Source: Mycobacterium adipatum
GTDB taxonomy: Bacteria > Actinomycetota > Actinomycetes > Mycobacteriales > Mycobacteriaceae
Assembly: GCF_001644575.1 (NCBI RefSeq)
Contig: NZ_CP015596.1
Coordinates: 4,650,001 to 4,714,000, forward strand
Direction: 5' to 3'
DNA: 64,000 nucleotides
Both the position numbers and the translations under genes were made by a program. Below are positions 20,443 through 56,170 of the stretch, one piece after another (the first letter of the stretch is position 1; every line of letters starts with the position of its first letter). Under the pieces are notes generated by a model. The model did not search any database. It was not told the DNA's origin and saw only the letters and a list, made by a program, of their open reading frames with translations.

Positions 20443-20505
20443 CGCGAGATTGCCGTTATCGAGGCGGCTACTCGCACTTTGTCTCGACAGGTGCAATCTC
20501 GCGGG
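20443..20505. repeat. Palindromic repeat A (hairpin), upstream of nuclease-like gene 1
   Basis: Arms CCGCGAGATTGC (20442-20453) and GCAATCTCGCGG (20493-20504) pair perfectly. The loop contains ACTCGCACTT. The 63-base unit matches repeat B at 21418-21480 at about 50 positions, in direct orientation. Confidence 0.75.
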
Positions 20506-20536
20506 GCTTGTCGGTGCGGTTGGGCAGCATCACCGC

Positions 20537-21484
20537 ATGGGGGAGCTGATCGTGGGTAGCCACGCACGTGCCGCGGGAACCGTAACCGACCATGAACTGC
20601 GGCGCTGGTATGACCGCGTCCACCGCGACATCTACACCTCACGCGGCCACCAGCTCACGTTGGACGAACGCATCGCCGCCGCGCACCTGCGTACGGGAGG
20701 TACAGGTGTGATCGCGGGTGTCGCCGCATCGGCACTGCTCGGCGCGGAGTGGGTGGACGGCGACATACCCATAGAAATGATCTGGAACATCAGCCGCGCC
20801 CCGGCCCGGATCATCGTGCGACGGGAGCGCATCGGCGCCGACGAGATCACCGCGCACAGGGGCGTTCCCGTGACGACGCCGACGCGGACTGCCCTCGACA
20901 TCGGTCGCCACCTCGGACGCGGCGAGGCCATCGCCCGTCTGGACGCGCTGCAGCGCGCGACGCCGTTCCAACAGGACGACGTTGTCGCGCTGGTGGAGCG
21001 GTATCGAGGTGCGCGCGGCCTCAAACAGTTGCGGTCGTTACTGCCACTCGTCGACGGCGGTGCCGAGTCACCCCGGGAATCCCGGCTGCGGTTGCTCTAC
21101 CTCGACGCCGGATTCCCGGACCTCACCACCCAGATCCAGGTGTACGACGGTCGTCGTCCACTGCGCAGGCTCGACATGGGTTGGGAGCAGTTCATGGTCG
21201 CCGTGGAGTACGACGGCGGGCAGCACCAGACCGACCGCTATCAGTACTTGAAGGATCTGCGCGTGATCCCGCAGCTGGAGCGGATGGGGTGGACGGTGCT
21301 GCGGGTGGTGAGGGAACAGAGCGACAGAGAAACCCTGGTGCAGGCGTATCGCGCGCTGATCGCCCGCGGCTGGGACGGAATACTCGGCACACCGCACCCG
21401 TCCGTCGCCCGGCTCGTCGCGAGTTTGCCGTTGTCGAGGACGTCACTCGCACTTCCACTCGACAACCGCAAACTCGCGGGCTGA
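20537..21484 (+). CDS. AbiEi-like / DUF559-type PD-(D/E)XK nuclease-like protein, copy 1
   Basis: 315 residues. The N-terminal half has a winged-helix-like start (TVTDHELRRWYDRVHRDIYT), GVIAGVAASALLGAEW and VPVTTPTRTALDIGRHL, resembling the AbiEi antitoxin-type domain common in mycobacterial orphans. The C-terminal half looks like a restriction-endonuclease fold: Glu in SPRESRLRLLYLDAGFP, Asp in LRRLDMGW, then VAVEYDGGQHQ, a DUF559/Vsr-like arrangement. It is a clear paralogue of the protein at 25716. Repeat A lies 32 bases upstream, and repeat B encodes its last 20 or so residues. No partner toxin gene is adjacent. Activity on DNA is inferred from the fold only. Confidence 0.75.
   Translation: MGELIVGSHARAAGTVTDHELRRWYDRVHRDIYTSRGHQLTLDERIAAAHLRTGGTGVIAGVAASALLGAEWVDGDIPIEMIWNISRAPARIIVRRERIGADEITAHRGVPVTTPTRTALDIGRHLGRGEAIARLDALQRATPFQQDDVVALVERYRGARGLKQLRSLLPLVDGGAESPRESRLRLLYLDAGFPDLTTQIQVYDGRRPLRRLDMGWEQFMVAVEYDGGQHQTDRYQYLKDLRVIPQLERMGWTVLRVVREQSDRETLVQAYRALIARGWDGILGTPHPSVARLVASLPLSRTSLALPLDNRKLAG
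21418..21480. repeat. Palindromic repeat B (hairpin), overlapping the 3' end of nuclease-like gene 1
   Basis: A 21-bp stem with one mismatch: arms 21418-21438 (CGCGAGTTTGCCGTTGTCGA and one more base) and 21458-21478; 19-base loop containing ACTCGCACTT. Direct copy of repeat A. The repeat is translated as the C-terminus of the upstream gene. Confidence 0.85.
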
Positions 21485-21536: not shown

Positions 21537-21938
21537 TCAGTTGGCGGGCGGGTAGTTGGGAGGCGGCGGCGGGTAGTTGGGAGGCGGCGGCGGGTAGTCG
21601 GGCGGCGGGGCGTCCAGCGGCGCGAAACCCCACTTGTCGGGATTCTTCGGCGAGTAGACGACGTCGATCAGCTGGCCGATGGTGGGCCACTGGGTGACGT
21701 CGACGACCATCCGTTGGTACACCACGTGTTCGTTGACCGTCGGGCCGTTGATCACACCGCTGATGGTGACGAACTGCTCGCCGACCTCGTCGGGGCGCGG
21801 GCTCACACCGGTCACCAGCAGAGTCCCGGGGGCCATGTTCGCCCCTACCGCTCCGCCACCGTTGCGGCGGCGGATCCACGGCATCGCTATCAGGACCAAG
21901 GCACCCACCAGGAGCAGGATCATCGCGAATTCGATCAC
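21537..21938 (-). CDS. Membrane-anchored protein with PPPPPNY repeats
   Basis: 133 residues from a GTG (the nearby ATG is out of frame). One N-terminal membrane helix (FAMILLLVGALVLIAMPWIR) precedes a beta-rich domain (VTISGVINGPTVNEHVVYQR, then MVVDVTQWPTIGQLIDVVYS) and a tail of repeated PPPDYPPPPPNYPPPPPNY. The domain resembles small DUF3592-like membrane proteins, but I am not sure of the family. It ends close to the nuclease-like gene 1 in convergent orientation and starts 88 bases before divergent hisN. Confidence 0.65.
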   Translation of the reverse strand: MIEFAMILLLVGALVLIAMPWIRRRNGGGAVGANMAPGTLLVTGVSPRPDEVGEQFVTISGVINGPTVNEHVVYQRMVVDVTQWPTIGQLIDVVYSPKNPDKWGFAPLDAPPPDYPPPPPNYPPPPPNYPPAN

Positions 21939-25571: not shown

Positions 25572-25597
25572 CTCGCCGAGAGTGCGGTTTCATTCGC
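25572..25597 (+). repeat. Inverted flanking repeat C, left of nuclease-like gene 2
   Basis: This 26-base unit (CTCGCCGAGAGTGCGGTTTC plus six) matches the reverse complement of 26665-26690 at 22 positions. The pair brackets the gene at 25716-26612. A weak hairpin with 25623-25638 (CGCACACTCGGGTGAG) is also visible. Confidence 0.6.
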
Positions 25598-25715
25598 AAC
25601 ACACCGCGGCCCCCGTATCCCGACGCACACTCGGGTGAGTCAGCCTGTGGATAACATGCGCGAATCGGGTGTCGACGGCTGATTCGTGTCGGCGCTCGTC
25701 GTCACCGTCGGTGGC

Positions 25716-26612
25716 ATGAACCCCGTCGATTGGCCATTCCGCGGCCCGGAGGCCGTGTCCGACGGCACCCTGACGTTCCGTGAACTTCGCCGCTTCAACA
25801 GGGCCATCTACCCGGCGGTGTGGATACCTCGCGACACCGCGCTGTCCCCGCAGGAGCTGGCCCGCGCGGCGTGGTTGTGGTCAGACCGCCGCGGCGTGGT
25901 GAGCGGCCTGTCCGCCTCGGCACTGTTGGGCGCCAAATGGATCGACGCCGGTGAGCGCGCCGAGATCATCCACAGCAACCGCAGGCCGCCGGCCGGGCTG
26001 ATCGTGCGTAGCGACACCCTGGCGCCCGGTGAGACAACCGAGGTCTCCGGCATGCAGGTCACCAACCCGGCCCGCACTGCATTCGATCTCGGGCGTCGAC
26101 TCAAGCTACGCGCGGGCGTGCAACGCGTCGATGCCCTGATAAGCGCCACCCGGGTGCAGGTTGCCGACGTCCACGCCGTCGCGCGTCAACATCCGGGCGC
26201 CCGCGGGCTACGCCAGTTGCGAGAGACTCTGGATATCGTCGACGGAGGCTCGGAATCCCCGTACGAGTCGTTGACGCGACTCGTACTGGTGCGCGCCGGG
26301 TTTCCGCGGCCGGTGACTCAGATCAGGGTCTACGACAGGTACGGCATCGCGCTGGCCCGGCTCGACATGGGCTGGCCCGAGTATCGCATCGCGGTCGAGT
26401 TCGACGGCGCTCAGCACTGGACGGACCCAGAGCAGCGGGACCGCGACATCGAACGCCACGCCGCCCTGGAAGCGCAGCGATGGATAGTCATCCGGATCAG
26501 TGCCGGCCTGCTGCACACCCATCGAGGGGCGTTCTTGGACCGCGTCCATGCGGCATTGCTGTCGCGGGGCTGCCCGCCGTTCGAGTATTCGGGTGACGAC
26601 TGCCGCTATTGA
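25716..26612 (+). CDS. AbiEi-like / DUF559-type PD-(D/E)XK nuclease-like protein, copy 2
   Basis: 298 residues from the ATG at 25716; a GTG at 25686 would add ten. It is a paralogue of the protein at 20537: both share LTFRELRRF/VTDHELRRW near the start, GLSASALLGAKW, a VTNPARTAFDLGRRL segment, VDGGSESPYESLTRLVLVRA and LARLDMGWPEYRIAVEFDGA followed by QH. The final part carries the acidic residues of a PD-(D/E)XK-like fold. It is flanked by inverted repeats C and D. No companion toxin or methylase gene is next to it. Role unknown; defence, repeat mobilisation or DNA repair are possibilities. Confidence 0.75.
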   Translation: MNPVDWPFRGPEAVSDGTLTFRELRRFNRAIYPAVWIPRDTALSPQELARAAWLWSDRRGVVSGLSASALLGAKWIDAGERAEIIHSNRRPPAGLIVRSDTLAPGETTEVSGMQVTNPARTAFDLGRRLKLRAGVQRVDALISATRVQVADVHAVARQHPGARGLRQLRETLDIVDGGSESPYESLTRLVLVRAGFPRPVTQIRVYDRYGIALARLDMGWPEYRIAVEFDGAQHWTDPEQRDRDIERHAALEAQRWIVIRISAGLLHTHRGAFLDRVHAALLSRGCPPFEYSGDDCRY

Positions 26613-26664
26613 GCAGGCGAGCTCCCCGAAAGTGCATCCGCATACGCCCGATGTCGGCGAGCCG

Positions 26665-26690
26665 CGGACGAAACCGCACGCTCGCCGAGA
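26665..26690 (-). repeat. Inverted flanking repeat D, right of nuclease-like gene 2
   Basis: Minus-strand reading CTCGGCGAGCGTGCGGTTTC plus six matches repeat C at 22 of 26 positions. It also contains half of a small hairpin (TCGGCGAG 26655-26662 with CTCGCCGA 26682-26689). Confidence 0.6.
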
Positions 26691-56105: not shown

Positions 56106-56170
56106 CCGCCGAAACAGCATTCCGGCGGGCCGTCACTCGCACTTTCCCGTCCGGAATGCTGTTTCGGCGG
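56106..56170. repeat. Long perfect hairpin E between convergent genes
   Basis: Perfect 20-bp arms (CCGCCGAAACAGCATTCCGG, 56106-56125, and 56151-56170) around a 25-base loop that contains ACTCGCACTT, the same loop core as repeats A and B. It begins right after the crotonase stop and ends 7 bases before the stop of the convergent TetR gene, so it may be a bidirectional terminator; no T-runs. Confidence 0.85.

Follow-up and report, generated by a model that had tools for sequence, protein, structure and literature searches.

A 64,000-nucleotide stretch of the 6.05 Mb genome of Mycobacterium adipatum (the window) contains a nuclease-like gene placed between two copies of a palindromic repeat, which raises the question of whether the gene and its repeats form a unit capable of spreading. 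The upstream copy, A (20443–20505, plus strand), and the downstream copy, B (21418–21480, plus strand), are spaced by 975 nt, run in the same sense and are identical at 79% of 63 ungapped positions, close to the 50 or so matches counted in an earlier sequence-only reading. That reading had also taken each copy for a hairpin, which was borne out: the arms are complementary at 82% (22 nt) in A and 95% (21 nt) in B, and folding as single-stranded DNA gave z scores of −4.25 for A (2 of 200 shuffles as good) and −6.47 for B (0 of 200). Matches to the arm pattern number four in the window against 0.00 expected. The loop of A reads ACTCGCACTTT, and the motif CTCGCACTT, previously said to be common to both copies, occurs three times in the window (0.43 expected; 3 of 100 shuffles as high): in A, in B and in a third hairpin at 56108–56170. 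A and B gave R1 hits of 73.4 and 83.1 bits, respectively. In the hairpin alignment 94.4% of cells pair, compared with at most 48.8% when slid; little compensatory change was found there (3 pairs; 80 of 500 shuffles as high), so the hairpin structure rests on pairing rather than covariation. We rejected a mismatch at stem position 12/50 as a special feature: it is unpaired in 16 of 18 sequences of hairpin alignment A2 and in 12 of 18 copies from genome G013, all four bases occur there, the neighbouring positions are strongly paired, and its frequency is near that expected of a free position. Rfam returned chance matches only (mir-196, 21.9 bits against a cut-off of 55.4), and a promoter scan of the locus was empty.

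The bracketed gene (20537–21484, plus strand) encodes 315 residues and lies between fprA and a 133-aa gene without a Pfam match. Its start codon is 31 nt past the end of A and its 3′ end overlaps B, which encodes approximately the last 21 residues; this tail is mostly disordered in the structure model, with residues 302–311 and 313–315 at pLDDT below 50. An AbiEi-like gene bracketed by A and B had been proposed, and the protein does match AbiEi in PADLOC (E = 3.2e-9). It is predicted to fuse an AbiEi antitoxin-type module (residues 1–173) to a nuclease domain of the Vsr/I-Bth0305I type (176–279), an assignment based on VIA-align comparison of the structure model, in which both the AbiEi-type two-domain fold (6y8q, 165 aligned, rmsd 5.4) and the Vsr-like catalytic fold are present. 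Vsr, the very short patch repair endonuclease, is a mismatch-repair enzyme. By sequence, the nuclease domain of the window protein stays under the Pfam cut-offs and has no better match than 3r3p at E = 1.3. MTES_1575 matches 34 of the 36 members of the family alignment (E ≤ 0.01), in agreement with the fold, and the only Pfam families matching the 36 at that threshold are MTES_1575, DUF559 and AbiEi_1. Six orthologs gave dN/dS values of 0.12–0.31. A relative from M. smegmatis (P0036) is 62% identical to the window protein over 90%. The neighbours scanned encode an oxidoreductase, the 133-aa protein, an inositol monophosphatase, a release factor and a second nuclease; no AbiEii nucleotidyltransferase toxin gene was found among them. 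The 133-aa gene itself carries three tandem 21-nt units (21544–21609), and its product has a proline-rich C terminus (NYPPPPP).

The locus is not unique, and the paralogy previously noted is extensive: the family model matches 13 places in the window genome (G000), and each of the 40 genus genomes searched holds 2–17 relatives. Seven paralogs read in the window genome also have hairpins alongside, with differing stems. One paralogous gene lies in the window (25716–26612, plus strand; MTES_1575 39.0 bits and DUF559 23.9 bits, both over the Pfam cut-off), between a degenerate upstream hairpin of another stem (25572–25639) and a downstream hairpin (26624–26689), neither with a strand assigned; its flanks score 23.6 inverted versus 11.0 direct. 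This second unit (25572–26689) stands 5 kb downstream of the first with its own degenerate hairpin pair; G185 and G187 have two nuclease matches spaced similarly, and what G186 has at the place of the second unit is a 112-position remnant.

To compare flanks across the family we used 60 listed places from the genus search, 29 loci for other genomes and loci added later; the genus listing comprised top-scoring places, so the sample favours close relatives. For 96 of the first 97 genes (one flank was too short) the median flank score was 17.75, compared with 10.5 for mismatched pairs, and a gapped version gave 23.7 versus 10.2 for mismatched pairs and 10.8 further out at the same loci. The final set comprised 153 genes that scored 200 bits or more across most of the model, encoding 138 distinct proteins. 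Scores of at least 15 were reached by 116 of the 138 genes (6% of mismatched pairs), of at least 18, taken as matching repeats on both sides, by 108 (3.5%), and of at least 25 by 86 (1.4%). The outer flanks of the same loci reached 15 in 10 of 132 cases and 18 in none, and none of 75 fprA loci without the unit reached 15. Paired flanking repeats, for which the sequence-only reading had proposed a comparison with random genes, are thus specific against three controls, in favour of that reading. The remaining 22 genes have no paired repeat at 15 or above, and several of those inspected retain one clear hairpin. The repeats are direct in all 12 genes with an orientated loop motif on both sides; the motif is not on both sides in 100 of the 138, and some loci score higher inverted. 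The layout is also present in chromosomes assembled as one contig, from several species.

The gene makes up a unit with the hairpins beside it, and the stem follows the nuclease lineage. For pairs at different sites, protein identity correlated with stem similarity (rho 0.204; maximum of 500 label permutations 0.064), in a test that counted some fprA-site pairs with L132, whose contig is short, as different-site. The test was rerun on the 129 genes with complete flanks, same-site pairs now being defined at the protein level. Among different-site pairs, a stem was shared (at least 18) by 4 of 3948 at below 50% identity, 44 of 173 at 60–70% and 4 of 7 above 70%; among same-site pairs, by 0 of 91 below 50% and 19 of 20 above 80%. 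Where a gene had a same-site partner with an unrelated stem, its protein was nearer to a gene elsewhere in 43 of 66 cases (36 of 54 with a DNA-level same-site definition). The Mantel statistics were computed without phylogenetic correction. Stems differ among gene lineages yet are common to related nucleases at unrelated sites, and one and the same site can hold units of different lineages from species to species. The site of G000:1915492 illustrates this: the TTGACTCTGCG stem is found there in the window genome, G186 and G189, another in G185 and G187 and a third in G190. The window-genome nuclease at this site is 54% identical to that of G187 and 68% identical to a G192 nuclease at another site, which has a similar stem. 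As a rule, the left hairpin resembles its right-hand partner at the locus more closely than it does the right hairpin found in another species: left–right similarity was higher within the locus in 72 of 78 same-site pairs from six sites, a count that takes in pairs with different units, includes L314, which has no paired repeat there, and retains L001, whose window hairpin was missed because the start was set too far upstream. Same-side comparisons (mean 73.9) are dominated by common flanking DNA and do not bear on within-locus likeness.

Orthologous sites occur in four states: occupied by the gene and two hairpins, by a hairpin but no gene, by another gene–stem unit, or by nothing. Empty and single-hairpin sites in relatives had been set beforehand as a check on mobility, and both kinds exist, an outcome in favour of the sequence-only reading. 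The gene stands downstream of fprA in 5 of 80 named loci, among which the closest fprA to that of the window belongs to Mycobacterium sp. MBM (90%), followed by M. frederiksbergense and P9-22 (88%). In the 75 fprA loci without the gene, the next gene lies within 200 nt in 45, lies farther in 18 and was not found on the stretch in 12. A long-arm search of the 45 short intergenic regions gave a weak hairpin in L199 and a second hairpin, identical to a G013 copy, in M. hubeiense (L158); hairpins with other stems were seen by eye at the fprA site of M. aurum, M. neoaurum and M. bacteremicum. In the metagenome bin WOFB04, two contigs share 4090 nt with a single difference, which lies within the hairpin: one contig reads hairpin–gene–hairpin, and the other has a single chimeric hairpin whose left half equals the left copy and whose right half equals the right copy. 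Both contigs come from a metagenome assembly and end at the same point.

Five further occupied sites were compared in up to seven relatives, with weak or contig-edge matches left out (5131k in G185, several in G192). At 1915k five relatives have the gene, G188 has one hairpin with the same stem, and G192 has nothing. The 5131k comparison leaves out G185: the gene is carried by G186, G192 and, in broken form, G187, G189 has one cognate hairpin, and G188 and G190, where the right flank was not matched, have neither gene nor hairpin. Six relatives have the gene at 4976k, and G192 has a single hairpin of related stem; at 2684k it is in G185–G187, with nothing in G189 and G190; and at 5366k it is in five relatives, with a different hairpin doublet in G188. 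That many units stand at the same site in several species indicates that movement is slow and inheritance mostly vertical.

Single hairpins stand in place of units and also at other sites. The third hairpin of the window (56108–56170, plus strand; loop ACTCGCACTTT; z −8.8) lies between genes and has no nuclease gene; its stem resembles that around the paralog at G000:2684357, and it is present at the same site in G185–G187 and absent from G188 and G190. Including this one, four of five solitary-hairpin sites are present in some relatives and absent from others, and G187 has a hairpin of another stem at one of them. At the solitary site G000:3116074, the flank matches of both G185 and G186 have a hairpin beside them in the model search. 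A covariance model of the window's hairpin class, used with a cut-off of 53 bits, found further copies beyond the flanking pair in G000 (at least 4), G185 (at least 4), G186 (at least 7), G187 (at least 4) and G192 (at least 4); these are minima, since only the best candidates per genome were scored. Of the close genomes, all 5 that have the gene at the fprA site thus contain solitary hairpins of this class, and none of the 3 without it does (G188, G189 and G190; best 44.9 bits). Some of these genomes supplied hairpins for training the model; the solitary copies of G187 and G192 did not enter it. The G192 ortholog is 63% identical to the window nuclease, and the nucleases of G188–G190 are at most 48% identical to it among 12 aligned proteins, which are a part of all hits. 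Across 118 genus genomes, hairpin matches occur in 47, window-type nucleases in 47 and both in 31 (odds ratio 6.7, p = 3e-6, uncorrected for phylogeny), again with the best candidates of each genome scored.

Two genomes show other arrangements. The 39 matches in G013 fall at 38 listed places. One of these flanks a nuclease with another stem, leaving 37 dispersed hairpin places with one stem among the 19 read (CGCGAGACTGTAGTTATCG...), a REP-like population; for some other genomes the hairpin table includes opposite-strand duplicates. This stem was found around none of the 12 nuclease matches of G013. One of the G013 hairpins read (L375–L393) stands at the fprA site, where the window has its unit. 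M. aurum (G188) has two mirrored hairpins that make up a 145-nt doublet, about 100 nt upstream of a nuclease without a downstream partner hairpin. The doublet recurs at three other places, two of which are nuclease-unit sites in other species; the doublets (L284, L128, L407 and L409) are all about 145 nt long with CCTAGG-like ends, and they resemble REPINs.

The sequence-only reading had likened the locus to REP/RAYT systems with a different enzyme. The likeness extends well beyond one locus, while active mobility and DNA cutting are still what we infer. As in REPtrons (and TIRtrons), the gene lies between two gene-specific palindromes that coevolve with it, and dispersed palindromes occur without the gene and correlate with the enzyme, G013 being the exception; PMC2817692 and PMC3733652 describe these features for RAYTs. 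Here the enzyme is a predicted Vsr-like nuclease, and neither the Pfam matches of the 36 members nor the fold points to an HUH/Y1 tyrosine transposase of the IS200/IS605 type. The window repeats are direct, as are all 12 orientated pairs, where RAYT genes have inverted ones; they are about 63 nt long and few, and there is no GTAG at the stem base of A or B. REP sequences usually exceed 100 copies per genome according to PMC2817692, compared with at least 4–7 solitary copies in the close relatives and at least 37 places in G013. The family thus works in a REP/RAYT-like manner but does not have the defining kind of enzyme, and is not a REP/RAYT member. It shares the predicted Vsr-like fold with EDxHD homing endonucleases such as I-Bth0305I, the nuclease domain coming nearest in fold to an enzyme of the homing type, but differs in its AbiEi-type N-terminal module, its position between genes and its two full palindrome copies in place of one split target or half-sites. 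With the AbiEi antitoxins of type IV AbiE systems (6y8q, Rv2827c) it shares the predicted two-domain fold, but it has a fused nuclease domain, no adjoining AbiEii toxin gene and repeats on both sides.

Homologs outside the genus extend the distribution. A search of 149 genomes of the phylum found a relative at E ≤ 1e-10 in 45 (four of them in the genus), with scores outside the genus of at most 143.5 bits. Of 26 outside-genus loci 23 were usable; in 10 of these a direct flank repeat exceeds the null's 99th percentile, and the inverted flank repeats of L206 and L228 are strong, on a score for which no null was run. The layout, seen in about half of these 23 distant homologs, is wider than mycobacteria. 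Plasmid and phage collections yielded weak relatives only (7 and 1 records, respectively). Within the open-licence literature, a scope outside which most subscription papers and preprints fall, we found no account of hairpin-bracketed DUF559/AbiEi-type nuclease genes and no description of such bracketing for Vsr or DUF559/MTES_1575 proteins.

We consider it probable (about 0.6) that the window locus belongs to a large family of nuclease units bracketed by palindromes and spreading by cut-and-repair. The union of a palindrome-binding module with a homing-type nuclease, and the palindromes on either side of the gene, suggest that DNA is cut at the palindrome and copied through repair. The AbiEi-type N-terminal module would bind the palindrome, its binding to the upstream hairpin probably regulating the gene as well, and the Vsr-like domain would nick or cut the DNA there, either as duplex or as single-strand hairpin. 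By repair from another copy, cut hairpin sites would acquire either a hairpin or the complete unit, and the two flanks would stay alike; recombination between the direct repeats may sometimes delete the gene and leave one chimeric hairpin, like a solo LTR. Counting against this explanation are the 37 hairpin places of G013 without a cognate nuclease found, the 22 genes below 15 together with the ten outer flanks that reach it, the small number of solitary copies in close relatives, and the fact that the chimeric single hairpin is known from a metagenome assembly. No target-site duplication was noticed in the sequences read, for which there was no dedicated search.

The most serious competitor, which we nevertheless regard as unlikely, is that the hairpins are operators or terminators only, with the AbiEi-type module repressing its own gene, the downstream copy acting as an insulator and the nuclease serving, for example, in defence. 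AbiEi antitoxins autoregulate through inverted repeats (PMC7319586); the short distance from A to the start codon fits such an operator, and binding specificity alone would yield the co-variation of gene and stem. Regulation would not, however, lead one to expect hairpins scattered apart from the gene, a single hairpin of chimeric make-up or one site held by units of different lineages, and a scan covering loops of 3–8 nt found no terminator near the gene. Less probable again is a phage-defence or toxin–antitoxin gene of the AbiEi group that lies at recombination-prone palindromes by chance, as the scanned neighbours include no nucleotidyltransferase toxin gene and the stems go with the gene lineage rather than with the site.

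The dispersed hairpins of G013 speak for an alternative in which REP-like hairpins are moved by another enzyme, for example an HUH transposase acting in trans, with the nuclease gene as a passenger. We think this still less probable, given that the stem follows the nuclease lineage and that hairpins co-occur with window-type nucleases. Chance, base composition or assembly artefact could produce some of the pairs, as 6% of mismatched flanks reach 15, but 108 of 138 genes at the higher threshold against the three controls, and a pattern that recurs in single-contig chromosomes of several species, make it scarcely credible as a general explanation.

Spread by cut-and-repair thus stays our preferred reading, and the family looks like undescribed, slow-moving selfish DNA, whose movement itself we infer. 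We judge the chances about evenly balanced that it represents an Actinomycetota-wide class of selfish element, in which an AbiEi-type module and a Vsr-like homing nuclease, with the target hairpin at both ends, spread by cut-and-repair, erode to single hairpins like solo LTRs and have independently converged on a REP/RAYT-like way of life by means of unrelated chemistry. If the preferred reading is right, proteins that now bear the annotations hypothetical, endonuclease domain or AbiEi antitoxin C-terminal domain would make up a lineage of selfish elements with palindromes of their own, and a hydrolytic nuclease could drive REP-like repeat populations. Many intergenic hairpins of mycobacteria would then be explained, and dozens of natural enzyme–hairpin pairs would be at hand for studying how proteins recognize DNA hairpins.
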